64,000 bases of DNA, from the NCBI GenBank assembly GCA_029260795.1, contig JAJDCO010000108.1, forward strand, positions 62,001-126,000, in the 5' to 3' direction. This DNA is from Planctomycetota bacterium. GTDB taxonomy: Bacteria; Planctomycetota; OFTM77. The notes under the pieces were generated by a model, which saw only the letters and a list, made by a program, of their open reading frames with translations, was not told where the DNA came from and did no database searches. Each line of letters opens with the position of its first letter. Position 1 is the stretch's first letter. The translations under genes and the position numbers were made by a program. Shown one piece after another: positions 7,061 through 22,811 of this stretch.

Positions 7061-7486
7061 TCAGGGGGCGCGGTCGACGTGGTAGAGCATCCAGTAGATG
7101 AGGACCCCCGTCACCGAGACGTACATCCACATCGGCCAAGTCCAGCGAGCCATCCGACGGTGCTTCTCGCGTCGATCCTTCCAGCCGAGGATCAGGGTCC
7201 ACGGCGCGAGGATCGCCACCGGAACGGCGAGGATTGTGTGAGAGAGCAGGATGGCAAAGTACGTAGTCCGGATCCAGCCCTGACTCTGAAACCCGGTTGC
7301 CCCGTGCTGGAAGTGGTAAGTCAGGTACGAGATCAAGAACAGCGTCGAGACCGTGAAAGCGCCGACCATGCATCGTTTGTGCAGCTCCAGGCGGCCGCTC
7401 TTGACGGCGATGAAGCCGATCAAGAGCAGGATCGCGCTCAGGGAGTTCAACCCGGCATTGACTGCGGGCAGGTCGGCAAAGGTCAT
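7061..7486 (-). CDS. DUF420 (CtaM-like) membrane protein, oxidase biogenesis
   Basis: 141 residues, four to five transmembrane helices (L-N-S-L-S-A-I-L-L-L-I-G-F-I-A; V-G-A-F-T-V-S-T-L-F-L-I-S-Y; Y-F-A-I-L-L-S-H-T-I-L; W-M-Y-V-S-V-T-G-V-L-I-Y). The conserved H-x-R/K residues (L-H-K-R-C-M and H-R-R-M-A-R-W-T-W-P) match DUF420. Family members assist assembly of heme-copper oxidases. The ATG overlaps the SCO stop by ATGA, so it is coupled to it. Confidence 0.88.
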   Translation of the reverse strand: MTFADLPAVNAGLNSLSAILLLIGFIAVKSGRLELHKRCMVGAFTVSTLFLISYLTYHFQHGATGFQSQGWIRTTYFAILLSHTILAVPVAILAPWTLILGWKDRREKHRRMARWTWPMWMYVSVTGVLIYWMLYHVDRAP

Positions 7487-8094
7487 CGAGCATCCTTCGC
7501 CAAGGCTCGAGCACGCGCGACCAGTCGATCCACGGCGTCTTCGGTCTCGCTGCTGAAGTAGCCCTGCACGACGCCGTCCGCATCCACGAGCACGAGACGC
7601 GTGCTGTGAGCGACTTCCTCACCGGGAAGCGCGCCGGGATCCTCCTGCACGCCCAGCCGAAAGCCCTTCTGGATCAGCTCGTAGATCGAGTCCTTGCGGC
7701 CTGTCAGGAAAAGCCAGCGCTCGGAATCGGCGCCGAAGCTCTCGGCGTAGGTGCGCAGTACTTCGGGAGTGTCTCGTTCGGGGTCGACGCTCACCGTGAC
7801 CAGTCGCACCGTCGTATCGGACAGTCGCTGCTGCACGCTCGCCATGACACCGCTGAGACGCGGGCACGGGCCCGCGCAGTTCGTGAAGGCGAAGCCGGCG
7901 ATCCAGGGAGCGCCCAGCAAGGTCTCCTTGCCCACTGCATCGCCGCTTCGCTCGATGAGCTCGAAGTCCGGGAGCTCAAAGCTCGCGCGCTCGGCCGCGG
8001 AAGCTCCTTCGACGGGGAGCTCGGTCTCCTCACTACAGCTGAGGACCGCGAAGGAAGCTGCCAGAGCGAGGAGCCGGAGTCGGGGCGAAGTCAT
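7483..8094 (-). CDS. SCO1/SenC copper chaperone lipoprotein
   Basis: 203 residues with a lipobox-like V-L-S-C at residue 20 and a thioredoxin fold. It carries the copper-binding C-x-x-x-C-P site in T-N-C-A-G-P-C-P (about residue 92) and the distal His in V-A-H-S-T-R (about 161). SCO proteins deliver copper to the CuA centre of subunit II and/or reduce its cysteines. Position between subunit IV and the DUF420 gene fits that role. The copper site is complete. Confidence 0.93.
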   Translation of the reverse strand: MTSPRLRLLALAASFAVLSCSEETELPVEGASAAERASFELPDFELIERSGDAVGKETLLGAPWIAGFAFTNCAGPCPRLSGVMASVQQRLSDTTVRLVTVSVDPERDTPEVLRTYAESFGADSERWLFLTGRKDSIYELIQKGFRLGVQEDPGALPGEEVAHSTRLVLVDADGVVQGYFSSETEDAVDRLVARARALAKDAR

Positions 8095-8125
8095 GGGGCA
8101 GGTTGCTCGCGTTGGAAGGTGCGTC

Positions 8126-8155
8126 GCGGGAGGGGGGCCGGGCCCCCATTCCCGC
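8126..8155 (-). terminator. Strong GC hairpin between subunit IV and SCO genes
   Basis: CGCGGGAGGGGGGC pairs with GCCCCCATTCCCGCG with one bulge and a minimal loop. No T-tract follows on the minus strand. It may attenuate transcription between the oxidase structural genes and the assembly genes, or protect the 3' end of the mRNA. Confidence 0.5.
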
Positions 8156-8169
8156 GAGTGTCCGCGGGT

Positions 8170-8466
8170 CTACATGTTCCGGTTATAGATGTCCGGATGG
8201 AGCGCGAACACGAGAACGGCGGCCAGAAAGGCGACCGGGATGAGCAACGTGTACTTCCAACGCCCCTCGTATTTGAGGTGCATGAAGAAGAGAACGACGA
8301 GAGCGGCCTTGGCGGTGGAGATGGCCATGGCCGCCCAGGCAGTCGCCTCGCGGTCGTTCTTGATGGCATCCACGAACGAGATCGCGTAGGTGCCGGCAGT
8401 GAGAACGATCAGCCCGGCGAACACCATCCAGGTGGGCTTGTCGCTGACTTGAGTCGAATGAGCCAT
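8170..8466 (-). CDS. ctaF: Cytochrome c oxidase subunit IV
   Basis: 98 residues from ATG 8466. Three transmembrane helices (W-M-V-F-A-G-L-I-V-L-T-A-G-T-Y; A-A-L-V-V-L-F-F-M-H-L-K; L-L-I-P-V-A-F-L-A-A-V-L-V-F-A-L). The F-M-H-L-K-Y signature is typical of the prokaryotic COX4 family (PF03626). It lies 32 nt after subunit III. A longer reading to 8541 overlaps subunit III and was not used. Confidence 0.9.
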   Translation of the reverse strand: MAHSTQVSDKPTWMVFAGLIVLTAGTYAISFVDAIKNDREATAWAAMAISTAKAALVVLFFMHLKYEGRWKYTLLIPVAFLAAVLVFALHPDIYNRNM

Positions 8467-8498
8467 TGTCTCTTGTCCTCCGTTTTCGGCGAGCGCCG

Positions 8499-9209
8499 CT
8501 ACGACTGCATGATGTAGAGGAGCGGGAAGAGGAAGATCCAAACGACATCGACGAAGTGCCAGTACAGGCCGAAGTACTCGATGACGTGATGGGATTGCTG
8601 GTTGACGGCCCCGCGCAAGCTGAGCAGCAAGATCACCAGCAGCCAGACCAGACCGCCGATGACGTGGAGCGCATGGCAGCCCGTCAGTAAGAAGTAGGTT
8701 GACGCAAACATGTTCCCGTCGTTCACGACCTCGGGGTCGAGCCCCTTCTCCTCGGCAACGATGGCGCCCAGCTTCTCGGCACCCTCACCTCCGGGATAGA
8801 TCCCGGCGTGGATCTTGTGCTCATACTCCATGGCCTTGACGCCCATGAAGACACAGCCGAGGACGAAGACGAGCACGAGCAACCCGCGCATCCGAGCGAC
8901 TTGATTCCTCAGGATGGCGTTGTGTGCCAGTACGACGAGGACCGAGCTCAGGATGAGCACGAAGGTGTTCAGCGCACCGAAGTGCTTGTTGTTGAGGACG
9001 AAGGGGTCCTCCTCGGGACTGAAGCCGGTGATGTAGTTCGAGGGCCAGGCTTCGGCGCCGAATCGTTCGTTGATGTAAACGGCCACGAGGCCCATGAAGA
9101 ACATGATCTCGGTGCCGAGGAACAGCCAGATGCCCAGCTTTCCGGTGGCGAGCTTCGTTTTGCTGCCCTCCGCGGCGGCGGGCTTCATGGGAGCCACTGC
9201 GGTATCCAT
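8499..9209 (-). CDS. ctaE: Cytochrome c oxidase subunit III
   Basis: 236 residues from ATG 9209 (GGAGGAAGAG upstream; an in-frame TTG at 9215 is less likely). Membrane helices carry subunit III signatures: [33 protein letters not shown] and [13 protein letters not shown]. It is the five-helix quinol/cytochrome oxidase form with a 50-residue loop between helices 1 and 2. Confidence 0.95.
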
Positions 9210-9270
9210 GGTCAACTCTTCCTCCAGTCCAATCTCGTTCGGGAAACCGTCATGCGTAGCGGCGCCCGCT

Positions 9271-10164
9271 TCATGCGACCGCGTGATCCAAGACGAGCAT
9301 CAAGAAGATCAGCGGCAAGTATCCGAGGGATGTCCAAAGCAGGCGTCGCGCCGAGGTCAAGCTCGGCTTGAACGCAAAGACGATCGCCGTTCCCAGGAAG
9401 ACGATCCCGAGGAGACCGGCGACGATGAAGTAAGTGGGCCCAGCTAGCCCGAGCGTGGCCGGCAAGAGGCCGACCGGGACGAGCACCAGAGCGTATCCGA
9501 CGGCTTGACGGCCTGTCATGCCATCACCGCCTGCGATCGTCGGAAGCATCTTGAGACCCGCCCGCGCGTAGTCGTCGCGGTAGATCCAGGCGATCGCCAA
9601 AAAGTGCGGGAACTGCCAGACGAAGATGATCGCGAAGAGCGCCCAAGCGCCCAGCGGAACGGTGCCCTCGACTGCTGCCCAACCGATGACGGGAGGCAGA
9701 GCACCCGGCACGGCGCCCACCAGGGTGTTAAGGCTCGTTCGCCGTTTGAGTGGCGTGTACATGAACACATAACTGAAGAGCGTCAGCGCCGTCAGCGAGG
9801 CGGCGAGCCCGTTGACGAAGATCCAGATCAGCGCGATGCCCCCGACGCCGGTGACGAATCCGAGGCTGAGGACCTCCCGAGCAGACAGTCGCCCCGAAGG
9901 CAAGGGGCGATCCGCCGTGCGCTTCATCAGGGCATCGGTGTCCTGCTCGATCCATTGGTTGAGGGCCGACGAGCTGATGGAGGCCAGCAGCACGCCGACA
10001 ATGGTCAGCACGAGTGGCTGCGGATCGGGCGCTCCCCCTGCGGCGAGGAAGGCGCCGACGCCGACGGCCAGGCCGATGAACACGGCGATTCTCGGCTTGG
10101 CGATGGTCAGGTAGTCAGCCCAGCGAGACGGTCGAATCGGAGTCGAGGCGGTCATCATCGTCAT
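9271..10164 (-). CDS. ctaB: Protoheme IX farnesyltransferase (heme O synthase)
   Basis: 297 residues from ATG 10164, which overlaps the ctaA stop (ATGA). UbiA-type prenyltransferase: A-K-P-R-I near residue 22 and the Asp-rich motif [12 protein letters not shown]-x-R-T near residue 72, with a second motif Y-R-D-D-Y near 195. About nine membrane helices. It attaches farnesyl to heme B, giving heme O for CtaA. Pairing with ctaA and subunit I argues for heme A in the oxidase. Confidence 0.95.
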
Positions 10165-11165
10165 CGAACACTCCCGGCGATCTCGACGGAAGGTCCCGTC
10201 CACTCGGCGGCATCGGAAAGCGCCTCACCCACCGGAAGCTCGAGCCTGGGCTCGGCCGCGAAGCGGTAGGTGCGCGTGAGCAAGGTGACGGAAGTCATCA
10301 ACAGCAGAGCACCAACGAGCACGTGTGAGGTCGCGCTGACGACATCGGCGATCGGGATGGCCGCGCCGGGAACGGTGTTTCGCACCGCCAGCCAAGTGAC
10401 GATTCCGAGGAGGATCTGGATGCCGAGCAGCGTGACAAGCCGGCGAGCCGGCTTAGCGAGGGCCGGGACGTCGGCGAAGGAGCGGCGAACGCTTCGCTGA
10501 GTCAGCGAGCACAGCACCGCCACGATCAAGGCGCCCGCCACATGAGCCAAGACGCTCATTTGGAGATGCCGCACGAGAGCGCCCAGGATCAGCTGGCCGT
10601 ACAAGGCGCCGGTCGTCACGAGCGCGAGCCTGCGAACACGGCGAGTCGCCGACCGAGGCTCTGCAGGAGGCGCCTGGCGCCAGCCGGGTGCGGTCACGAC
10701 GGCGATGACGACCACGAGGCAGAAGAAGGCCTGCGCGAAGGACCCGTGGACGACGGCCAGCACGCGCTCGATCAGCGTGACGCGCAGGCCGCCGAGCACT
10801 CCCTGGATGCAGACGCCGACCAAGGCCGCGAATCCCAGCCAGCGGACCCAGCGACGTGATTCTTGTCGCCAGATCCACAAGGCCAGCCCGACCGTGAGCA
10901 GGCCCACGATCGAGCCCATCAGGCGATGGGAGTGCTCCCAGAAGACGCCCGTCGACTCGAGCATCTTGCCGATCGGATACAAGAACATCTGGTAGCCGAA
11001 GGTCGTGGGCCAATCGGGCACCGCCAAGCCGACCTCGAGGGAGGTGACGATCCCGCCCAGCATGAGCAGCGGAAAGGTCGCCACCGCCGTGAGGATGGCG
11101 AAGCGATGCACTCCATTGCGCGACGTCTCGGCCGCGGGGCCCCGATCCTTCGTCTCCAGGCTCAT
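10161..11165 (-). CDS. ctaA: Heme A synthase
   Basis: 334 residues, COX15/CtaA family, about eight transmembrane helices in two pseudo-repeats. Heme-binding histidines are visible in W-E-H-S-H-R-L-M-G (about residue 78), V-H-G-S-F-A-Q (about 140), H-L-Q-M and S-H-V-L-V-G-A-L-L (about 280). The P-D-W-P motif near residue 51 is family-typical. It oxidises heme O to heme A. It begins right after subunit I (stop TGA at 11168-11170). Confidence 0.95.
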   Translation of the reverse strand: MSLETKDRGPAAETSRNGVHRFAILTAVATFPLLMLGGIVTSLEVGLAVPDWPTTFGYQMFLYPIGKMLESTGVFWEHSHRLMGSIVGLLTVGLALWIWRQESRRWVRWLGFAALVGVCIQGVLGGLRVTLIERVLAVVHGSFAQAFFCLVVVIAVVTAPGWRQAPPAEPRSATRRVRRLALVTTGALYGQLILGALVRHLQMSVLAHVAGALIVAVLCSLTQRSVRRSFADVPALAKPARRLVTLLGIQILLGIVTWLAVRNTVPGAAIPIADVVSATSHVLVGALLLMTSVTLLTRTYRFAAEPRLELPVGEALSDAAEWTGPSVEIAGSVR

Positions 11166-11167
11166 GT

Positions 11168-12961
11168 TCAGATCGCGGCTCCCGGTACCGGAGCCGCGCC
11201 GGGCGTCGGGACGTTCTGAGGCAGGTAGTCCTCTTCGACCTCGGGCGAGGCGTACTCATACGGGCCACGGTAGACGATGGGCGTCGTCTCGAAGTTGCCG
11301 TGAGGCGGGGGCGAAGGCGCGACCCACTCGAGCGTGTTCGAGCGCCACGGATTCCGGTCGGCCTTCTCTCCGCCGAAGATGCTGAAGATGAAGTTCAACG
11401 CGAAGATGACCTGGAACCCTCCGAGCACCAACGCACTGATGGTGATGAAGATGTTCAAGTCCTTCAGGTGTGCGAAGGTCTCGTAATGGTACGGATCGGC
11501 CAAGCGGCGAGGCATTCCAGCGGCGCCGAGGACGTGCATCGGGAAGAAGGTGCAGTTCATGGCGACGAAGGTGCCGAAGAAGTGCACCTTGCCCCAGGAC
11601 TCGTTCATCGTGCGGCCGAACATCTTAGGGAACCAGTAATAGATCCCGGCGAAGATGCCGAACGCGCTTCCGCCCATCAGCACGTAGTGGATGTGGGCGA
11701 CGATGAAGTAGGTGTCGTGGATGTAGATATCGATCGGCGTCGCAGCCATGAAGATGCCGCTGAGCCCGCCGATGGCGAACACCGAGATGAACCCGACTGC
11801 GAACAGCATCGCCGAGGTGAAGATCAGGTTTCCTCGCCAGAGCGTTCCGAGCCAGTTGAACGTCTTGATGGCGGACGGCAGCGCGATCATCATCGTCGAG
11901 ACCATGAAGGTCGCGCCCAGAGCGGGGTTCATGCCGCTCTGGAACATGTGGTGGCCCCACACGACGAAACCCAGCCCGGCGATTCCCGCCACCGAGTAAA
12001 CCATCGGTCGGTAACCGAAGAGCGGTTTTCGAGCGAAGGTCGACAACACGTCGGACACGATCCCCATCGCAGGCAGGATCATGATGTAGACGGCGGGATG
12101 CGAGTAGAACCAGAACAGGTGCTGCCAAAGGATCGGCTGCCCGCCACCGGTCGCCACGGTCACGTTGTTGACTACCAGGCCGGCCGGATTGAAGAAGCCC
12201 GTCTGGAGGGTTCGATCCAGGAGCTGCATGGCCAAGGCCGCGGTCAAGACAGGCAAAGCGAACGCCTGCAAGAGGGCGGTGATGAACATTGCCCAGACCG
12301 TCATCGGCATGCGGAACATGTGCATGCCCGGCGCGCGCATCTTGATGATGGTCGTGATGTAGTTCACCGAGCCCATCATCGAGGAGATGCCCACGAAGAT
12401 CAGAGCCACGAGCCACCAAGTCTGACCGCCGAGTGATCCCGGGGCAGCGGTCTCGATCGTCGAGAGTGGTGGATAGGCTGTCCAGCCGGCGGCGGCCGCC
12501 CCTCCCTCGACGGTGAAGCTGTACCCCATGATCAAGAAGGCGGGCCAGAAGAACCAGTAGGACAGCATGTTCAGCGTCGGGAAAGCCATGTCCGGCGCGC
12601 CGATCATGAGCGGAATACAGAAGTTGGCGAACGCTCCGATCAGCATCGGGATGACGACGAAGAAGATCATCACCGAGGCGTGCATCGTGAACAGCATCGT
12701 GTAGAACTCGGGCGAGATGACGTTGCCCGTGTCCGAGAAGAGCATCTTCCCGATCACCGGCATCTCTTGCCAGGGCCAGGCGAGCTGCCATCGAACAGCC
12801 AAGGCCAAGAGGCCACCGACCATGAAGAACACCAGCGTCGTCAGAAGGAACTGGATGCCGATGATCTTGTGGTCGAGCGAGAAGACGTACTTGCGGAGGA
12901 ATCCCGGCTGAGGGTGATGCCCGTGGCCGCCGGATTCAGAATGGTGTGCGGTCGCGTTCAT
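11168..12961 (-). CDS. ctaD: Cytochrome c oxidase subunit I (aa3 type)
   Basis: 597 residues with 12 or more helices. It holds heme a, heme a3 and CuB. Markers: F-T-M-H-A-S-V-M-I-F (low-spin heme His), W-Q-H-L-F-W-F-Y-S-H-P-A-V-Y (CuB His and cross-linked Tyr), V-W-G-H-H-M-F and H-D-T-Y-F-I-V-A-H-I-H-Y-V-L-M-G (heme a3/a His). The Y-S-H-P form, rather than the canonical G-H-P-E-V-Y, lacks the Glu of A-type oxidases, so the D-channel may be replaced by Y-S residues (A2-like). The start was set at ATG 12961. A GTG at 12979 overlaps the subunit II stop. Confidence 0.96.
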   Translation of the reverse strand: MNATAHHSESGGHGHHPQPGFLRKYVFSLDHKIIGIQFLLTTLVFFMVGGLLALAVRWQLAWPWQEMPVIGKMLFSDTGNVISPEFYTMLFTMHASVMIFFVVIPMLIGAFANFCIPLMIGAPDMAFPTLNMLSYWFFWPAFLIMGYSFTVEGGAAAAGWTAYPPLSTIETAAPGSLGGQTWWLVALIFVGISSMMGSVNYITTIIKMRAPGMHMFRMPMTVWAMFITALLQAFALPVLTAALAMQLLDRTLQTGFFNPAGLVVNNVTVATGGGQPILWQHLFWFYSHPAVYIMILPAMGIVSDVLSTFARKPLFGYRPMVYSVAGIAGLGFVVWGHHMFQSGMNPALGATFMVSTMMIALPSAIKTFNWLGTLWRGNLIFTSAMLFAVGFISVFAIGGLSGIFMAATPIDIYIHDTYFIVAHIHYVLMGGSAFGIFAGIYYWFPKMFGRTMNESWGKVHFFGTFVAMNCTFFPMHVLGAAGMPRRLADPYHYETFAHLKDLNIFITISALVLGGFQVIFALNFIFSIFGGEKADRNPWRSNTLEWVAPSPPPHGNFETTPIVYRGPYEYASPEVEEDYLPQNVPTPGAAPVPGAAI

Positions 12962-12968
12962 GGCGTAC

Positions 12969-13745
12969 TTACTCCCCACCTTGCTGATCGAGCCAGGCCT
13001 GGAACTCCTCGGGCGTGTGCACGTAAACTCGACCCTTCATCTTGTAGTGTCCCCAGCCACACAGCTCGGCGCAGACGAGGTCGTATTCGTTGTCGTCGGT
13101 TCCGCCCTGAATCTGAGCGTCGAACCAGACGGGGATCGTCATCCCGGGAACCGCGTCCTGCTTGATACGAAACTGAGGCACGAAGAAGCTGTGCAGGACG
13201 TCAGCAGCCTCGAGGTCGATGAGGAACTTGCGTGGATCCTCGCCTTCCTTCCAGCCCGGAATGTGCAGCTCGTTGACGGTCTGAACATCGTCGAGAGTGC
13301 CGTAGCGACCGTCCTTGCCCGGGTAGGTGATGCGCCACTCGAACTGCCGCGCGACGACCCGTGCCATCGGGCCGCCTTCGATCCCGAACTCTTGGGTGAA
13401 CTTGATCGCCCTCCAGTCCTTCATCTGCACGAACGCGATGAAGATCAGGATCAGGGCCGGAACGATCGTCCAGATCACCTCGAGCGCGTGATTGCCATGG
13501 ACGTGGGCCGACGCCTTGTTCTGGCGCTTCGACGAGTACCGGAACATGAAATACACCAGGAACGCGTTCACCAGAACGAAGGTGACCCCGGTGATCCACA
13601 GGATCAGGCGGTACAGGTCGTCGATACGATGGCCGAAGCTCGAGACGTTGGTCGGCATCGACCAGCCGTAATCGGGGGCGACCCAGAAGAGCGCCACCGC
13701 ACCCACCGGCACCAACAGGAACAAAAGGCTCCACAGCTTACGCAC
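12969..13745 (-). CDS. ctaC: Cytochrome c oxidase subunit II (CuA)
   Basis: 258 residues from GTG 13745 (AGGAG upstream). Two N-terminal membrane helices, then the periplasmic cupredoxin domain. The CuA site is intact: H in V-L-H-S-F-F-V-P, then C-A-E-L-C-G-W-G-H-Y-K-M. No fused heme domain is present. The electron donor is probably the diheme cytochrome encoded just upstream or the octaheme protein. The aromatic W residues near the CuA site are present. Confidence 0.96.
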   Translation of the reverse strand: MRKLWSLLFLLVPVGAVALFWVAPDYGWSMPTNVSSFGHRIDDLYRLILWITGVTFVLVNAFLVYFMFRYSSKRQNKASAHVHGNHALEVIWTIVPALILIFIAFVQMKDWRAIKFTQEFGIEGGPMARVVARQFEWRITYPGKDGRYGTLDDVQTVNELHIPGWKEGEDPRKFLIDLEAADVLHSFFVPQFRIKQDAVPGMTIPVWFDAQIQGGTDDNEYDLVCAELCGWGHYKMKGRVYVHTPEEFQAWLDQQGGE

Positions 13746-13856: not shown

Positions 13857-15095
13857 TCACGGCGTGCTGGTCAGGGCCAAGCTTCGAACGAAGCACACCA
13901 GGTCCCAGACGCTGTTCGCCCGATCCTGAATCGCCTCGTCTTCGGGGACGTTCGCGGCCGTTGCCGCTCGCCAAGCTTCGAGAGCCGCCTGATCGGTCGG
14001 TTTCTCTTCCTCGGCATGCTTCTCGAGGAGGGCATCCGTCAGAGGAAGGGTGTTGCCGAAGCCCGGCATCGCGCTTCCCTCGATCCCCGCCTGAACGCGA
14101 CGCCACAAGTCCTCTGGCCTTCCACCACCCCGATACAGACCCCGTCGCAGGTTGGCGGGACGCGCCACGTTGAACCAGCTGTCGGTTGGGATCTGAGTCC
14201 CGTCACCGGTGCCGCTCGTTCCGTGGCAGGACGCGCACTGCGCCGCGGCCGTCGTGTAGAGGTTGCGGCCGCGCTCGACGCTCTCCGGATCACCGAGGCT
14301 CGGGACATCTCCCTCCACCTCGACGACGTTGTCGGCCGCTTCCATCCATTGCCCGAAGACGAGCTCGACCGACTCGAGGATCACGTCCGTCGTGAGCTCT
14401 TCCTCGTCCAGGCCGCTTCCGTCCTCGCCGATCTCGGAGGCGAGGGCCTCGAGATGCTGCCGTCGGAGCTTGGCGAGATCGGCTTTGGAAGGATCCTCCG
14501 GCTCTTCGGGCTTGGTGAAAAGATTGTTGAACAGGTAGTAGCCAAGCTCTTGCTCGACCTGTCCCCGGAAGCTCAGGACCAGGACGTAGTCGAGGACGGC
14601 CTGGAGCTCCTCGGGATCCTCGAGCTTGAACGACGGCATCGAGGTACCGGGCACGCCGTTGTTCAGCGTGCGCATCAGGTCCTCGCGCATGGGCTTGCTG
14701 CCATTCTTCGTCGAAGCGAACTTGTACCGACCGGCCCGGTAGTCCCGAGGCCGAGGGTTCAAGAACGGTGCCGTCGGGCCCATACCATCCCCCGACAGGC
14801 CGTGGCAATGCATGCAGAGCCGACGGAATCCGGCGGCCCCCTTCTTCAAGTGCTCCGAATCGAAGCTAGCCCCTTCGATCTCGAGCTCCAGCTCATTCTT
14901 CGCCATCACCACCGGTCGAGCCGGCGTGCCGAAGTGCTGGAACAAGGCCCCTTCGATGACCGTCTGCTGCTCCTCGGGCAGCAGCTTGGTCTGATCGGAC
15001 AGCCTGTACTTCAGCTCGTCGGGTGAAGAGCCCTGGCATCCGGCGATTAGGAGACCGGACCCGCAGATGAGCACGATGATCCACCGAGCGTTCAC
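13857..15095 (-). CDS. Diheme cytochrome c lipoprotein
   Basis: 412 residues from GTG 15095 (GGAGG upstream). The lipobox L-I-A-G-C gives a membrane-tethered periplasmic protein. Two cytochrome c domains: heme 1 C-M-H-C-H near residue 93 with Met ligand region G-T-S-M-P-S-F, and heme 2 C-A-S-C-H near residue 295 with G-S-A-M-P-G-F. They are linked by an acidic spacer. First gene of the oxidase part, so it is the likely soluble-arm electron donor to CuA. Length is larger than typical CtaC-fused cytochrome domains. Confidence 0.9.
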   Translation of the reverse strand: MNARWIIVLICGSGLLIAGCQGSSPDELKYRLSDQTKLLPEEQQTVIEGALFQHFGTPARPVVMAKNELELEIEGASFDSEHLKKGAAGFRRLCMHCHGLSGDGMGPTAPFLNPRPRDYRAGRYKFASTKNGSKPMREDLMRTLNNGVPGTSMPSFKLEDPEELQAVLDYVLVLSFRGQVEQELGYYLFNNLFTKPEEPEDPSKADLAKLRRQHLEALASEIGEDGSGLDEEELTTDVILESVELVFGQWMEAADNVVEVEGDVPSLGDPESVERGRNLYTTAAAQCASCHGTSGTGDGTQIPTDSWFNVARPANLRRGLYRGGGRPEDLWRRVQAGIEGSAMPGFGNTLPLTDALLEKHAEEEKPTDQAALEAWRAATAANVPEDEAIQDRANSVWDLVCFVRSLALTSTP

Positions 15096-15260
15096 TCGTC
15101 GTCCTCCGTACGCGCACGCCGCTGGGACGTGCGGGAATCCTCTTCTCGCTGATGTTCGCTCACCGAGCGATCCTCCGCGGTTTCCGCCACGGACGAGGTC
15201 TGGCTACCTCGCCCCTCTCGAATCCGAGCCGCCGGGGCCCGGAGATCGAAAGACAAGACA

Positions 15261-15286
15261 GGAGCGAGCCGCATCCGGCTCGCTCC
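15261..15286 (-). terminator. 11-bp hairpin ending the cytochrome bc part of the operon
   Basis: Arms 15261-15271 and 15276-15286 (GGAGCGAGCCG / CGGCTCGCTCC) are exact inverted repeats around CATC, 14 nt after the stop of the cupredoxin gene. Only TGTCTTGTCTTT follows on the minus strand, so it may be a partial terminator that lowers read-through into the oxidase genes. Confidence 0.7.
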
Positions 15287-15299
15287 CCGTCGTAGAGAA

Positions 15300-16043
15300 T
15301 CAGTTCTTCGGCTTGAACTCGAAGTCGATGCCTTCGACCGTACCGTCGGCCTTGACTTCGACCTTCTTGTGCTTGGTCTTGGACTTTCCGAGGCTCTCGT
15401 GCCAGGCGATCAGCTCGTAGGTGCCCGGCGGGACATTCTTGAGCTCGAAGCTGCCGTCCTCGTTGGTCAGAGTGTAGTAGGGGTGGCCGGCGACCACGAT
15501 CCACGAGAGCATCCACTTGTGCACGTCACACGTGACCTTGATGGTCTCTTCCTTCTCGAGCTTCTGCTTGAGGGACTGCCCGGCCGGAATCCCCTGATTG
15601 ATCGGGGTGTTGCGACGCGAGTAGGTGTGGACGTTGTGGAGCACCGGGTCCGAGTTCTTGATGTCGATCTGGGAGCCGACCGGCACGATCATCACGCGGC
15701 TCACGAATTCGCAGTCCTTCTGATCGAAGATGCGAGCGAGCTGGGCTTTCGGCCAACCGTCGGGAGCGTCGATCTTCTTGATCGAGACGACGACGTTCTG
15801 GATGCCCTTGTTCTTAGCGACCATGAGCGACTTGTCGACGTCGCTGCGCTTGCCGCAGACTTCGACGTCCTTGTCGATCTTCAACTTGCCGGCGGCCGGC
15901 ACATTACCGTCGATCAGGCACTTGCCCGTGATCGAGCCACCCGCGGGCTTGGCAGGAGTGTTCTCCTCGGCGGACAGGCCAGCGACCAGTCCGAGGGACA
16001 ACACGCCCCAGGTGGCGAGGCTCATCGCATGCTTTGCAAACAT
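15300..16043 (-). CDS. Secreted cupredoxin-like protein with carboxypeptidase-regulatory-like tail
   Basis: 247 residues, with GAGGAG before ATG 16043. Signal peptide ends near A-G-L-S-A-E. The central domain has the pattern of a type-1 copper site: His in L-H-N-V-H-T-Y (about residue 135) and C-D-V-H-K-W-M (about 172, C-x-x-H-x-x-M). The last 60 residues (Y-Y-T-L-T-N-E-D-G-S-F-E-L-K-N-V-P-P-G-T-Y) resemble the CarboxypepD_reg/transthyretin-like fold. Such plastocyanin-like proteins occur near respiratory genes. It may carry electrons from the bc complex to the oxidase. Two further Cys (G-K-C, V-C-G) are unexplained. Confidence 0.8.
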   Translation of the reverse strand: MFAKHAMSLATWGVLSLGLVAGLSAEENTPAKPAGGSITGKCLIDGNVPAAGKLKIDKDVEVCGKRSDVDKSLMVAKNKGIQNVVVSIKKIDAPDGWPKAQLARIFDQKDCEFVSRVMIVPVGSQIDIKNSDPVLHNVHTYSRRNTPINQGIPAGQSLKQKLEKEETIKVTCDVHKWMLSWIVVAGHPYYTLTNEDGSFELKNVPPGTYELIAWHESLGKSKTKHKKVEVKADGTVEGIDFEFKPKN

Positions 16044-16215: not shown

Positions 16216-19200
16216 TCAACGCGGATTGCTCGCCGCTGCCGGCGAGGCCGTCCAATTCATGAGCAGATCCTTGATCGCTTCCACCTGATGACCGGACGGG
16301 GCGGCAAAGGCCTCTTGGTACCGCTCCTCGTCGGAGAGGAACAGCTGCGGCATCTTGGTCCCCGGTTGGAAACCTTGTGGATCGAAGATCCACGAGCGAA
16401 TCCACTCCGGCCTCAAGCGTTCGTGGGCCATCGACAAGTCCGGCGCCCAGCTCGAAGGATCCCCTTCCGGTGTCTTCTCTCCCTGCATGTGGCAGTTGAA
16501 GCAGTTGACCTGCGGATCCTGCATCAGAGCCCAAGCGTTTTCGAGATACTGCTCGGGTTGATCGTCGCTCCGGGCTGCGAGGTAGCTCGCCGCCGACTCG
16601 TCATAGTAGTTGTAGGGGTACTGACGCCGATCCTTGGCACCGAAGTAGTTCGCGAGCGTCGTCGCCTCCTCCTGAGTGAACCCGAAGGTCGGCATCCGCA
16701 CCTCGAACCAAGGGCGGAGCGGATACGGGTTCATGAGGAACTCGAATGCCCAGGGCGTCTGGATCTTCTGGCCTTCGCGAAACAGCACGGGCGGCTTGTA
16801 GGGATCGATGGTCGGCTGGATATCGTTGAAGTACTCGTCCGTGTCGAACGGGTCGAGATCCTCGTTTTGAGCGTAGGCCAGCTCGAGCGATCGGCCGAGG
16901 CGGCCTCCCAGTGCAAGGCTCGGGTCGATGAGCTGCACGATCTTGTCGCGCGTCAGCTCGAGCTCGGCAAAGGCGTCGAGGCCCAGCTCCTCGATGGGCT
17001 TCATCAAGCCGAAGGTCAACGAGCCTTCCTCGAGGTCGGCCGAGGTGATCTTGCCGTAGGCGAGGTGGATCTGGCCATCCTCACCAATGAATCGGATGGC
17101 CGTGAAGAGAGAGACGTCCGCCTGAATGTCTGCTTCGACGCCGAGCTCGAGAGTCGTCCCGACCGGGTCCAGCACACTCACGCTTTCGAGGTCCGTGATC
17201 TTCTCACCGGCCAGCATTCGGATCTTCTCGGGATTGCTGAACATCTCGTAGGCAATCGGAACCGAGTCGGCGCCGTAGATCGTCTGCGCGGCCGCGAAGT
17301 CGGTCTGCCCCTTTTGCGTCAGGGCGATCTGATCGGTCCAGGCCCGGAAGAAGCTGACCTCGTCTTCGACCGAGACCTCGGTGACCTGCCCGATGGCGTG
17401 TCGGCGGAGGGCGTCGTCGTCCAAATAGCTGATCTCATGCATCTCGAACTGGTGGCATCCGTAGCAATTCGAGTCGTGGATGATCCTCTCACCACCGGCG
17501 ATCACTTGGGCGTCCCCTTGCAGGTTCGCCTTCATGATTTCGGGAATCAGCTCTTTCCGATTGCCGAACAGGTAGGTGACGAGCGCCTCGATTTGATCGT
17601 CCTTGAACTCGAAGTTCGGCATGCGCGAAGCGTCTTTGTAGGCCTTGTAGCGGCCTCGATCGAAGATGCGCGGGTAGCGAATCTTCATGCCCAGCCAGCT
17701 GTGGAGAGTGTGGTCGATGTGATAGGTCTTCTCTTCGCCCGTCACGCGATCGACGCCATCGACCTCGTGAAGCTCGAGTCCGAAATCGACGGTGTGCAGA
17801 TCCTTCGTACCGTGCTCGGAGAGCTCGGCCCCGATGCCCTTGGCATCCTCGTATCCGTTCACCCAGTGGCAGCCGGTGCAGCCGTAGCGCTCGACGAGCT
17901 TCTGACCGACGAAGGTGCGCTTTTGGTCGAGGCTCATCGCATCGGCCTTCGCTTGGGCATCCGCGATCGGAAGATCGTCGAGGTAGTTCTCGATGATGCG
18001 GGCATCGAGGAAGCTCAGATAGTCAGCATCCGAACGATCCGGAGAGCCCCGGAAAGGGGACTCGGTCTGGAATGCTTCGAGGAGATAGGAGGCAATGTCC
18101 AGCGCTTCTTGGTCTTCGAGGCGCAGGCTAGGCATGCGTCCGTCCGGATGATACTGCTTCGGGTCCTTCACCCAGTGATAGAGCCAGGCGAGATTGAGCT
18201 TCTCGCCGACCCGAGACAGGTTGGGACCAAAGTTGTTGCCCGGCGCGAAGGGAAGGGAGTCGACGGCGTGGCAGCCTAGGCAGCCACGGTTCTCGAACAG
18301 CGTTTTGCCGCTCTCGGTATCGGCTTCGAGCCCGTCGGGAAGGGGCAAGTCCATCGGCACCGACTGTTGGAACAGGAAGGCCGTGATCGAGTCGGCCTCG
18401 ACCTGATTGAACTTCTGCATCTGCTCACGATGAGCTCGCGTATCCAGCTCACCGCCGCTGTTCGAGAGCCCAAAGAACTTGGGCATCTTGGTCGTCGGGC
18501 GAAACGCCTTCGGATCGAGCAGCCAGGCGTACACCCAGTCGGGCTCGAGCTTCGCCCCCACCTGGCGCAGGTCGGGTCCGACCTTTCGTGGCGACTCGAA
18601 GTCCTTCATGGCGTGACAGCCATGGCAACCGTACTCGTAGAAGATCATGCGTCCGGCATTGACGCTGTTGTGCCCGGCCAGGGTGGCACCCTCGTCGACG
18701 GTGTTCCAGGCCGGTGAAGAGGCGGCGAGCTCGACAGTGGTCGGCCCGGCTTCGGGAATCGTCCAGCTGTCCCCGTGACACTTGAGGCAGGAGGAGTAGA
18801 TGTACTGGGTAGGCACCATGGGGAACTCCCAGTGCATGAAGGCCTTGGGCGTCCAGCCGTACTTCTCCTCCCACTGCTCACGCTGCGCGTCATCGCGCGG
18901 CACGTGAGCACTGCCCTTGAAGGTCAGGTCCTGGCCGCGACCTTGGTGGCAGACGGTGCAGCCGAAGTCGAGATAGGAGTGCGGCGAGCTGGGAGAGACG
19001 AAGAGGTCGAGGCGCGGGTGCGAGCGGAAGGGATGCTCCCAGTTGTCCCCGGTGTATCCGATGCCATCGATCGCCATGTGGCAGGTCTTGCACATGTCGA
19101 TGCGCTCGGCCTGAGTGAAGTTGAGGTCGTCCCGGAGATTCGGCGGCTTGACCCACTCGACCTTGGTCACCGGATCGATGAAGTCCATCATCGGCGTGCG

Positions 19201-19887
19201 ATCGAGCACGGTATTCCTGAAACCGGACTCGGTGCGCTCGATCTTGCGAGCGAGGATGTCGCGCTTCTCGGTCAGGCTGCGAATCTCGTCATCGTAGACC
19301 GTGACCTGCTTCTCGAGCTCTCCGAGCTCATCGCTGATGGACTTCTCTTGCTTCTTGAGCTCGTTCAGATCGTTGGAGAGCTTTGCGATGTCCTGCTCAT
19401 TCTTGACGACGAGATCGTAGCGATCGCGCAGACCTTCTGGGAACTCTGCCGGATCGATCCGACCCTCTCCGTGCTCCACCCGAAAGTGAGTGAGCTCGGA
19501 TTCGTACTCGTAGCGAAGAACGTCCAGCTTGGCCCGGGCGAACTTCACGAGCTGATCGGCGCGGTAGATCTGCTCTCGCTGCAGCTTGTCGAGCTGATCC
19601 CGTTTCGCCTCGATATCGCTTTCGATTCGAGTGAGGGTCTGAGTCTTGGATTCCTGAGCTTGCTCGAGGGCGGCCTGATTCTGCTCGTCGAGCTCCTCGA
19701 TCTGAAGGCGGGCGCGCTCACGATCCCGGGCGAAGAAGTCCCGTTGGAAGTGCTTCCATTCGCGATCGTAATCGTCGATCACCATCCAGATGACGGACGC
19801 GATGAGAGCCAATGCTGAAAACAGAAAGACAACGTTCAAACGCTGGATGTTGAACGCGTGATCCGTCTTGCGCTTGGGGGTGGCCAA
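16216..19887 (-). CDS. Giant membrane-anchored octaheme cytochrome c with coiled coil
   Basis: 1223 residues from a TTG start at 19887 (GGAG upstream). Residues about 17-37 form a membrane anchor. Residues 50-220 form a long charged coiled coil. Then come eight C-x-x-C-H sites in order: CKTCH, CTVCH, CLKCH, CHGCH, CLGCH, CTGCH, CYGCH, CFNCH. Several are followed by cytochrome c Met regions (T-K-M-P-K, G-R-M-P-S, S-R-M-P-N, V-R-M-P-T, T-K-M-P-Q). It lies 3' of split cytochrome b and Rieske genes, where cytochrome c1/f would stand. I infer it is the c-type subunit of this bc complex, wiring it to the oxidase. I do not know a named family. Confidence 0.88.
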   Translation of the reverse strand: MATPKRKTDHAFNIQRLNVVFLFSALALIASVIWMVIDDYDREWKHFQRDFFARDRERARLQIEELDEQNQAALEQAQESKTQTLTRIESDIEAKRDQLDKLQREQIYRADQLVKFARAKLDVLRYEYESELTHFRVEHGEGRIDPAEFPEGLRDRYDLVVKNEQDIAKLSNDLNELKKQEKSISDELGELEKQVTVYDDEIRSLTEKRDILARKIERTESGFRNTVLDRTPMMDFIDPVTKVEWVKPPNLRDDLNFTQAERIDMCKTCHMAIDGIGYTGDNWEHPFRSHPRLDLFVSPSSPHSYLDFGCTVCHQGRGQDLTFKGSAHVPRDDAQREQWEEKYGWTPKAFMHWEFPMVPTQYIYSSCLKCHGDSWTIPEAGPTTVELAASSPAWNTVDEGATLAGHNSVNAGRMIFYEYGCHGCHAMKDFESPRKVGPDLRQVGAKLEPDWVYAWLLDPKAFRPTTKMPKFFGLSNSGGELDTRAHREQMQKFNQVEADSITAFLFQQSVPMDLPLPDGLEADTESGKTLFENRGCLGCHAVDSLPFAPGNNFGPNLSRVGEKLNLAWLYHWVKDPKQYHPDGRMPSLRLEDQEALDIASYLLEAFQTESPFRGSPDRSDADYLSFLDARIIENYLDDLPIADAQAKADAMSLDQKRTFVGQKLVERYGCTGCHWVNGYEDAKGIGAELSEHGTKDLHTVDFGLELHEVDGVDRVTGEEKTYHIDHTLHSWLGMKIRYPRIFDRGRYKAYKDASRMPNFEFKDDQIEALVTYLFGNRKELIPEIMKANLQGDAQVIAGGERIIHDSNCYGCHQFEMHEISYLDDDALRRHAIGQVTEVSVEDEVSFFRAWTDQIALTQKGQTDFAAAQTIYGADSVPIAYEMFSNPEKIRMLAGEKITDLESVSVLDPVGTTLELGVEADIQADVSLFTAIRFIGEDGQIHLAYGKITSADLEEGSLTFGLMKPIEELGLDAFAELELTRDKIVQLIDPSLALGGRLGRSLELAYAQNEDLDPFDTDEYFNDIQPTIDPYKPPVLFREGQKIQTPWAFEFLMNPYPLRPWFEVRMPTFGFTQEEATTLANYFGAKDRRQYPYNYYDESAASYLAARSDDQPEQYLENAWALMQDPQVNCFNCHMQGEKTPEGDPSSWAPDLSMAHERLRPEWIRSWIFDPQGFQPGTKMPQLFLSDEERYQEAFAAPSGHQVEAIKDLLMNWTASPAAASNPR

Positions 19888-19965: not shown

Positions 19966-21045
19966 TCAGATGTTGAAGAAGTACTCAGGGAATGCGACGA
20001 GGTACTTGAGATTGAACATCCAGCGCAACGCCATCTTGATTGGCAAAGAAGCCATCATCAGGAAGAGGAAGATCATGACGTTGAATCGAATGGGACCCAT
20101 CTCCGCGTAGAACTTGCGGAAAACGGTCTTGGCCAGGATCGGAGGAAGCAAGAAGAGGTAACCGGCGGTCACGATGAGACCCGGCAGCTCTCGCAACAAC
20201 GGGTTCGTCGGTCGGCCACCATCCAGCCAGATCACCCAGAAGTACTCGGAGAGGTCGACATTCACGAGGGCCTCGAGCTTGGCGACGTCCCACCGCTCGA
20301 ACAGACCGAAGAAGTTCCAGTTTGGCCCTCTTAAGAATGTCCCGATGAAGATGAGCGTCACCCAGAGGATCAGGAAGCCGAACAGGAAAGTCGTGATCGC
20401 GAACTTCCGCTCTTTCCAGGTGTAGTAGCCGTTGCCTTTCGGATTGGGATCGAAGTAGGGCACCGCCATCAGGCCGACGATGATCAGCCCGGGCAAGAGC
20501 ACGCCGGCAATCCACGGGTCGTAGTAGACGAGCATCTCTTGCAACCCGAGGAAGTACCAAGGAGCCTTCGACGGGTTCGGTGTTCGAGTGGGGTTGGCCG
20601 GCTCTTCGAGCGGGGCATCGAGCAGGATGGACCAGATGATCAAGCCGACCGTACACAGGATGATCGCGAGGAACTCGATGTAGACCAGGTCGGGCCAGAC
20701 GAAGACCTTCTGCTTGGTCTCGCGGCGCTCCATCGTCTCCTGACCCGCTTCCATGAGCTGATCGTTGATGACTGCCCGGCGCATGCCCAGCCAGGTGAAG
20801 AACCCGACCAGCACGACCATCATCACGATCGGCACGTTGTCGGCCTTCGCGACGATCAGCATGAAGTTCTCGTCCGTCATGCTGAGGCCGAAGAAGACCA
20901 CCGACGCGGCCGCGCCGGCGATCGCGACGATCGGCTTCGTGAAGAAGCGGATAAAGATCAAGCCGGCGGCGAACATCACCACCGACAAGATCAGCAAAAT
21001 CTTCGGATTCGTCAGGAAGTTGACGATTTCCTTGAAGGTTTCCAC
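19966..21045 (-). CDS. Cytochrome b C-terminal half (subunit IV-like, bc complex)
   Basis: 359 residues from GTG 21045 (AGGAG upstream). Six or more helices. The conserved quinol-site loop reads S-K-A-P-W-Y-F-L-G-L-Q-E-M-L (about residue 167), the P-W-Y-F variant of the PEWY motif found in menaquinol-type bc complexes. An N-terminal extension of about 120 residues with three helices precedes the usual subunit IV region. There are no heme-ligating His pairs, as expected for the half that follows the diheme b6 part. Confidence 0.9.
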   Translation of the reverse strand: METFKEIVNFLTNPKILLILSVVMFAAGLIFIRFFTKPIVAIAGAAASVVFFGLSMTDENFMLIVAKADNVPIVMMVVLVGFFTWLGMRRAVINDQLMEAGQETMERRETKQKVFVWPDLVYIEFLAIILCTVGLIIWSILLDAPLEEPANPTRTPNPSKAPWYFLGLQEMLVYYDPWIAGVLLPGLIIVGLMAVPYFDPNPKGNGYYTWKERKFAITTFLFGFLILWVTLIFIGTFLRGPNWNFFGLFERWDVAKLEALVNVDLSEYFWVIWLDGGRPTNPLLRELPGLIVTAGYLFLLPPILAKTVFRKFYAEMGPIRFNVMIFLFLMMASLPIKMALRWMFNLKYLVAFPEYFFNI

Positions 21046-21159: not shown

Positions 21160-21942
21160 TCAAAGAGGCCCCGAGATCCCGCCGTCCTTCCGCACGCGCC
21201 AGAAGTGAACCGCCATCAGCACGGCCGCAGCGAGCGGAATCGCGATGCAGTGCAGCACGTAGAATCGAAGCAAGGCTCCAGCGGCCACGAATCGACCGCC
21301 CAGCAGGGCGAAGCGCACATCCGATCCCGCGTGCACGAGGGGTGTGTCCCCGATCGCCAACAACGCGGCGCCTGGACCCTCGTTTCCGAGGAACGGTGTC
21401 GCTCGTGCCATGTTCGTTCCCACGGTCACCGCCCACATGGCGAGCTGATCCCACGGGAGCAGATACCCCGTGAAGGACAGCAGTAGCGTCAACACCAGCA
21501 GGATCACCCCCACGTTCCAGTTGAACTCCCGAGGCGGCTTGTAGGAGCCGGTCAGGAAGACTCGGAACATGTGGAGCCACACCGTGATAACCATGGCGTG
21601 GGCGCCCCAGCGATGCAGCTCGCGCATGATGCCGAGCGGCACGTGCGCGCCGAGCGCCTGGATGTCCTCGAAGGCGAACTCGGCTGTCGGGCGGTAGTAG
21701 AACATCAACAAGATCCCGGTCACTGATTCGACCAGGAAGATGAAGAACGTCAAACCACCCATGCACCATGTGTAGGAAAGCCGCACACCGCTCTTCCGCA
21801 CCTTCGTGGGGTGCAGATGCAGGAACACGTTGCTCAGTACGACCAGAACGCGGTTGCGGTCGTCGCTCGGCATCTTGTGCCGAAAGACCGAGCGCCAAAC
21901 CGGATTCTCGGTCAGCACCTTCATCACCTTGCTGCGAGCCAC
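21160..21942 (-). CDS. Cytochrome b6-type subunit (diheme N-terminal half of cytochrome b)
   Basis: 260 residues from GTG 21942 (GAGAGGAG upstream; an in-frame GTG at 21981 is possible). Four helices with both bis-His heme pairs: L-H-R-W-G-A-H-A-M ... W-L-H-M-F-R and F-Y-V-L-H-C-I ... [16 protein letters not shown]. The W-G-T/V-T-V quinone loop appears as [11 protein letters not shown] Cys near residue 52 (Y-T-W-C-M-G-G) sits where b6 has the heme c(n) Cys region, so a third covalent heme is possible. Confidence 0.92.
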
Positions 21943-22003
21943 CGGACTCCTCTCTGCTTTTCCCTGGGGCCCTCGAGTCACTCCGACGCGAGCACGCTCA
22001 ACG

Positions 22004-22642
22004 TCAGAGGCGGAGGAACGAGGCGGGATCTTTCCACTGCCCCTTTTCCTCTTGGAACAACCGGCTCTTGTCGATCAGCACCTGACCGTCGTCGGCAAGC
22101 GAGATCGCGTAGCGCTCCAACGGTCGGGGTGCCGGCCCCTCGAAGTTGATACCGCTCATGCGAAAGCCACTCCCGTGGCAAGGACACTTGAACTTCTGCT
22201 CCGCGGCTAGCCAGTTCGGCGTGCAACCAAGATGGGTGCACACCGTCGACAAGACGTACATCCCCTCCTGGTTTCGCACGATCCAAACACCGTACTGAGC
22301 CTTGAACCGCTCTTCCACAGCACCGACTGCATAGTCCGACGGCAAACCAGCCCGGAACGAAGAGGGCGGCTCGTAACGGACGTTCGGAAACAGAAACCGC
22401 GTGGAAGCCGCCAGGAAGGCGCCCGACGCGCCGACGAAAGTCAACCATCCCAGACCCAGCGCCGAGAACAGCCCGCGACGGGTCACGCCCTCGTCGGCGG
22501 GAGCACTCGGCGCCTTGACCGGCACGGCCTTCTTGACCGGCACCAGCTTCGGGCGCTTCACCGCCGTCGCCTCGGGCGCCGCTGGCGTCTCCGAGGCCTC
22601 GGCCCCCGCGCCTGGACTCTCTTGCTTTTCGTCCGACATCAT
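22004..22642 (-). CDS. Rieske iron-sulfur protein of the bc complex
   Basis: 212 residues from ATG 22642 (GGAG before it; a second ATG follows at once). A Pro/Ala/Lys-rich N-terminal segment precedes a twin-arginine-like T-R-R-G-L-F and one hydrophobic helix, so export is likely by Tat. The Rieske 2Fe-2S ligands are intact: C-T-H-L-G-C near residue 136 and C-P-C-H-G-S near 155. First gene of the respiratory operon, 22642 being about 135 nt downstream of the predicted transcription start. Confidence 0.94.
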
Positions 22643-22783
22643 TCGCTCCAAGGACCCTCGAGATCGTGAGCCCGGTGCCCGCCGACACCCCGACCGCACC
22701 GACGCACATCCACCGGGGATGCGTCGTCGAGCACGCGCCAGAAGTGCGTTGCAGACGGATCCGGCCTCGGGGCAAGGTGCCTT

Positions 22784-22811
22784 ATTGTAGGGACTACCTT
22801 AGTCGAGTCAA
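22784..22811 (-). promoter_or_regulatory. Sigma-70-like promoter for the respiratory operon
   Basis: On the minus strand, TTGACT (22811-22806), 16-nt spacer, TACAAT (22789-22784). Both boxes are near consensus and lie in a local AT-rich island. Expected start near 22777, giving a leader of about 135 nt before the Rieske ATG. Confidence 0.75.

Follow-up and report, generated by a model that had tools for sequence, protein, structure and literature searches.

We consider it likely that the window (the whole 64,000-nucleotide stretch of a Planctomycetota contig analyzed here) encodes a quinol-oxidizing, b6-type Rieske/cytochrome b complex with an eight-heme c-type subunit, and that this complex would pass its electrons to a blue-copper protein (cupredoxin)—or to a diheme lipoprotein—and from there to the CuA site of an aa3-type oxidase. 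In mitochondria and plants, a one-heme subunit stands at the octaheme protein's place in the quinol-oxidizing complex. The link between quinol and oxygen in planctomycetes other than the anammox bacteria has been poorly described so far.

What kind of protein is the octaheme cytochrome? It is encoded by a 1223-aa open reading frame on the minus strand (16216-19887), with a TTG start and a GGAG-type site 5' of it, and its third-position GC of 0.81 is consistent with a real coding frame. CxxCH motifs lie at residues 266, 310, 367, 421, 536, 670, 808, and 1129; shuffled sequences contained 0.0065 such sites on average and one at most, which rules out chance as the source of the eight. A single transmembrane helix (aa 19-37; 19777-19833, minus strand; hydropathy 2.7), preceded by basic residues, anchors the N terminus. 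The initial annotation of this DNA had described a protein of just this length, heme number, and topology, all of which the sequence bears out. Hemes 1-3 belong to a triheme module (aa 260-375; 18763-19110, minus strand) with sub-threshold Cytochrome_C7/c3-like matches, and hemes 4-8 to five class-I cytochrome c modules (aa 404-1212; 16252-18678, minus strand) with Cytochrom_C, CBB3, and FixO matches. Candidate distal ligands were judged from a 62-row alignment (MAFFT, fast setting), whose members were selected for eight motifs, such that the heme count there holds by construction and the ligands do not. The candidate distal histidines of the triheme module (H290, H303, and H328) are kept in 62/62 sequences, as are M468, M585, M756, and M1065, while M1179 is found in 98%, putting the five candidate distal methionines of hemes 4-8 at 98-100% conservation. 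Three conserved histidines and five conserved methionines for eight hemes suggest three bis-His and five His/Met hemes.

Two features of family architecture were seen alongside. A variable insert at aa ~850-1020 (16828-17340 of the window), between heme 7 and its methionine ligand, explains part of the family's length range of 849-1865 aa. Five-heme proteins related to the C-terminal half of the octaheme protein also occur, two of them in the window's own genome (L046:7348-9723 and L047:8631-11459) and others at L072-L076 and L078; they mostly have no membrane anchor and lie away from bc genes, and one has a PA14 insert. The octaheme protein may be a fusion of a five-heme module with an anchored triheme part.

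To which complex does the cytochrome belong? Its gene follows those for a Rieske protein, a cytochrome b6-type protein, and a subunit-IV-type protein, in that order on the same minus strand and with gaps of 22, 114, and 78 bp, confirming the earlier claim that it shares an operon with Rieske and split cytochrome b genes. The Rieske [2Fe-2S] protein (22004-22699, minus strand; PF00355 and PetC models) has intact CTHLGC and CPCHGS motifs, both of which are found in 57/57 relatives. The cytochrome b6-type protein (21160-21981, minus strand), identified by alignment and by PF00033, PRK03735, and ExtP matches, contains the histidine pairs 123/137 and 244/259 as well as a cysteine in the pattern TWCMGG, which recurs in 44 cytochrome b sequences, that of the window included. 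By comparison with b6, we take this cysteine to be a candidate linkage position for heme cn. The subunit-IV-like protein corresponding to the C-terminal part of cytochrome b (19966-21045, minus strand; PF00032, cytb6_f_IV, and ExtQ matches) has APWY at the position of the Qo motif, and 56/58 relatives have APWYFLG. A weak promoter-like site lies 5' of the Rieske gene (22784-22811, minus strand), the number of such sites found being not above chance. The gene content supports a place for the octaheme protein in a Rieske/cytochrome b complex, as its c-type subunit.

The operon varies among relatives in two respects that we note in passing. Glycine replaces the cysteine at the heme cn position in nine loci (L060, L061, L062, L064-L067, L126, and L127), and these complexes form one clade in the cytochrome b tree (support 100/99), which suggests a single loss of heme cn. 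In two distant relatives, a HEAT-repeat gene lies directly 5' of the Rieske gene (L028:5364-6230 and L116:4477-5526).

Is a conventional c-type subunit encoded elsewhere? Neither cytochrome c1 (PF02167) nor cytochrome f (PF01333) had a match anywhere in the genome, and the Synechococcus control for cytochrome f was positive. This absence supports the initial annotation's proposal that the octaheme protein stands in place of cytochrome c1/f. The operon itself, which encodes cytochrome b and a Rieske protein, is not one for alternative complex III, nor does it have the c1 and unsplit cytochrome b of a bc1 complex. The genome holds two further Rieske/cytochrome b pairs. One (L045:7285-9544, on contig G000:C40) has a PEWY motif, and its cytochrome b is fused to a diheme c domain, much as Kuste3096-3097 have been described; the other (L048:7312-8983, on contig G000:C125) has an unsplit cytochrome b with a PEWF Qo motif and a NapB-like tetraheme ORF ~4 kb away.

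How widespread is the octaheme protein among planctomycetes? The 16 PSD1 domains of the window's genome, and the occurrence in its phylum of a family (f42) with HzsA-sized hydrazine-synthase genes, point to Planctomycetota. A profile built from 24 relatives and applied with a cut-off of 1e-70 matched 117/294 Planctomycetota genomes, or 70/154 among those of good quality. The cytochrome b profile likewise matched 117/294. The two occurred together in 113 genomes, and each was found alone in four. Where both were present, the genes lay less than 10 kb apart in 97 genomes, 10-20 kb apart in 4, and on separate contigs in 12. All complete homologues in the 64 loci examined have eight CxxCH motifs, copies with fewer being truncated at contig ends. 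The complete homologues sit with Rieske/cytochrome b genes, and our survey of these operons found none apart from bc genes. Alternative complex III has been reported in Phycisphaerales (PMC11266412), consistent with the many genomes of the phylum in which the octaheme protein is missing.

The closest described parallel comes from anammox bacteria: in Kuenenia stuttgartiensis (Kustd1480-1485), cytochrome f gives way to a cytochrome with eight or six hemes (PMC12954380). Multiheme replacement of cytochrome f is therefore already known. For our comparison, family f42 was taken as anammox because its genomes carry one or two HzsA-sized ORF copies of 810-830 aa. PF18582 (HZS_alpha) alone was rejected as an anammox marker, as it has matches outside f42; in genomes outside the anammox family (e.g., G144, G276, and G159), large ORFs contain as many as 16 copies of it. 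Each of the 8/8 anammox-family genomes has one strong full-profile octaheme match. These relatives keep all eight hemes, and no oxidase genes lie near the locus. In nine f42 loci, the genes for cytochrome b and subunit IV are separated by one for a 568-aa protein that combines pyridine-nucleotide and 4Fe-4S domains, which is the gene arrangement published for Kustd1480-1485; this NAD(P) oxidoreductase insertion is present in none of the other loci, and the window has 114 bp there. One anammox genome also encodes a second octaheme protein (L104, on contig G152:C1), of 849 aa, with its own Rieske and cytochrome b and no NAD(P) oxidoreductase match.

What lies between the membrane anchor and the first heme? 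The initial annotation saw a coiled coil of about 170 residues in this part of the protein. Its coiled-coil character stood up: the region (aa 38-229; 19201-19776, minus strand) has a heptad signal with z = 4.8 against shuffles, and Pfam and NCBIfam give weak coiled-coil matches over it. A single rod, however, is probably the wrong picture. In the ~190 residues from the membrane helix to heme 1, a low-confidence AlphaFold2 model predicts two long helices (~38-138 and 151-229), interrupted briefly at aa 139-150, which probably form an antiparallel two-helix hairpin. The full-length model, from an alignment of two sequences only, has a mean pLDDT of 33 and was used just for these N-terminal helices; at that confidence, heme placement and an electron path are not traceable from it. 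The distance between anchor and heme 1 is 195 residues in f42 anammox proteins, 228 in the window, and about 212-235 in most others, and this near constancy suggests a structural ruler or clamp. Anammox and window proteins both show the heptad signal. In some families (e.g., f14 and f8) it is weak, and not every member therefore needs a strict coiled coil. In the Kuenenia model, the long helices of Kustd1485 wrap around both the Rieske protein and the complex as a whole (PMC12954380).

Which proteins might receive the electrons? Downstream of the octaheme gene lies one for a secreted protein with a cupredoxin domain and a C-terminal CarboxypepD-like domain (15300-16043, minus strand). The cupredoxin domain contains the complete His, Cys, His, Met set of type-1 copper ligands (H136, C172, H175, and M178), each kept in 98-100% of 47 sequences, and amicyanin is matched by the family profile at 1e-6 with the copper ligands aligned; the product is very probably a blue-copper protein. 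A structure model of the cupredoxin alone had a mean pLDDT of 39 and was not used, so that the fold itself is putative. A terminator-like hairpin with a 12-bp stem (15260-15287, minus strand), identified by consensus match only, follows the cupredoxin gene and parts it from the oxidase genes, making co-transcription of the operon with the oxidase only putative. Beyond it, a diheme c-type lipoprotein (13857-15095, minus strand; lipobox LIAGC, two CxxCH, and Cytochrom_C and CBB3 matches) is a candidate second carrier. The oxidase genes comprise ctaC for subunit II (12969-13745, minus strand; TIGR02866 above cut-off), with a full CuA site CAELCGWGHYKM and no c heme, ctaD for subunit I (11168-12979, minus strand; PF00115 and TIGR02891), and ctaA, ctaB, ctaE, a small ctaF-like gene, and an SCO1-like gene (7483-11165, minus strand), those from ctaA onward being named from sequence. 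The gene order from ctaA to the SCO1-like gene is the same in relatives (blastp). A cupredoxin gene lies 3' of the octaheme gene in most non-anammox loci, often before ctaC-ctaD. Loci of families f40 and f49, as well as L028, contain the octaheme gene with neither cupredoxin nor oxidase nearby; a cupredoxin carrier is thus not universal. The f42 anammox loci have no cupredoxin, and two loci of f74, another hydrazine-synthase-positive family, have one.

How, then, would electrons move through this complex? Quinol would be oxidized at the Qo site of the b6-type core in Q-cycle turnover, one electron returning across the membrane via the b hemes and the other passing to the Rieske cluster and on to the octaheme subunit, whose helical hairpin probably clamps or spaces the complex. 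From the outer end of the octaheme subunit, the electron would most likely go to the blue-copper protein, or else to the diheme lipoprotein, before reaching CuA of the aa3 oxidase. The initial annotation had proposed a multiheme wire between the bc complex and the oxidase. In its strongest form, the octaheme protein would run directly from the Rieske protein to CuA within a III-IV supercomplex, with no mobile carrier, and the coiled coil would serve as spacer or dimerizer. Eight hemes would give a long reach, actinobacterial bcc-aa3 supercomplexes are a precedent, and oxidase genes do adjoin the octaheme operon in the window, as they do in many relatives. However, the anammox relatives retain every heme in loci devoid of oxidase genes, which ties the octaheme protein to the Rieske/cytochrome b core rather than to the oxidase and argues against a dedicated direct wire. 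In most oxidase-linked loci, moreover, the conserved blue-copper gene is interposed between the octaheme gene and ctaC, and the terminator-like hairpin precedes the oxidase genes. From the anammox loci and the usual position of the blue-copper gene, we rate a mobile carrier no less likely than a direct wire. Thus, a connection to the oxidase survives from the original proposal, whereas the direct wire itself we regard as unlikely.

Other roles would take the electrons elsewhere. Multiheme cytochromes often serve as enzymes or as exits to extracellular acceptors, and the NCBIfam models nearest to the cytochrome b proteins, although below cut-off, are those of Geobacter ExtP/ExtQ. An enzymatic function (e.g., reduction of nitrite or an oxyanion) would nevertheless sit poorly with a conserved candidate sixth ligand for each heme and no obvious open substrate site, and genes for a porin or an outer-membrane cytochrome, as might serve an extracellular exit, were not noticed in the operon; we hold either role to be highly improbable. 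Even less probable is bifurcation as proposed for Kuenenia, with electrons going both to NAD(P)+ and, via the octaheme protein, to a second acceptor. The window shares the subunit family and the type of cytochrome b with the anammox operon, but the NAD(P) oxidoreductase gene accompanies 9/9 f42 loci of that layout and no other locus. The octaheme complex feeding a blue-copper or diheme lipoprotein carrier and the aa3 oxidase remains our preferred reading.

What does this arrangement mean for the phylum? We found no description of the form linked to cupredoxin and aa3 in other planctomycetes, an absence that is weak evidence given poor coverage of subscription journals. Tentatively, and with somewhat more doubt than conviction, we propose that much of the Planctomycetota has the octaheme form as its ordinary complex III, of ancient origin and partnered by a blue-copper carrier and an aa3 oxidase. 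It would then stand alongside bc1 and b6f as a third architecture, and the NAD(P)-linked complex of anammox bacteria would have been derived from it by insertion of one reductase gene. The octaheme protein is conserved even in loci without the reductase and, for that reason, is separable from the NAD(P)H role put forward for anammox bacteria. A phylum-wide complex with an invariant eight hemes would imply that textbooks understate how replaceable the c-type arm of complex III is. Cultured planctomycetes with the octaheme complex would allow direct tests of the electron path.

How does the window's complex compare with known systems? It resembles cytochrome b6f in its split cytochrome b, the 14 residues between its second histidine pair, the cysteine at the heme cn position, its PetC-like Rieske protein, and a probable blue-copper acceptor; it differs in having an octaheme subunit and no cytochrome f in the genome, and in its APWY rather than PEWY. 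With the actinobacterial bcc complex and bc1, it shares a Rieske protein, cytochrome b, a c subunit that carries extra heme, and a position next to an aa3 oxidase, and QcrC is weakly similar to single octaheme modules; in contrast to these complexes, however, its cytochrome b is split, its hemes number eight instead of one or two, and no c1 is matched. Geobacter ExtP/ExtQ models match its cytochrome b and subunit IV below their curated cut-offs. Like Kuenenia Kustd1480-1485, it has a b6-type cytochrome b, subunit IV, and a Rieske protein in one operon, and cytochrome f's place is taken by a large multiheme cytochrome that has long helices and a single membrane anchor, the link to Kustd1485 resting on layout and description. 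Unlike that operon, the window's lacks an NAD(P) oxidoreductase gene but includes one for a cupredoxin and adjoins those for an aa3 oxidase, and the missing oxidoreductase makes it a variant rather than a full member of the Kustd1480-1485 type.
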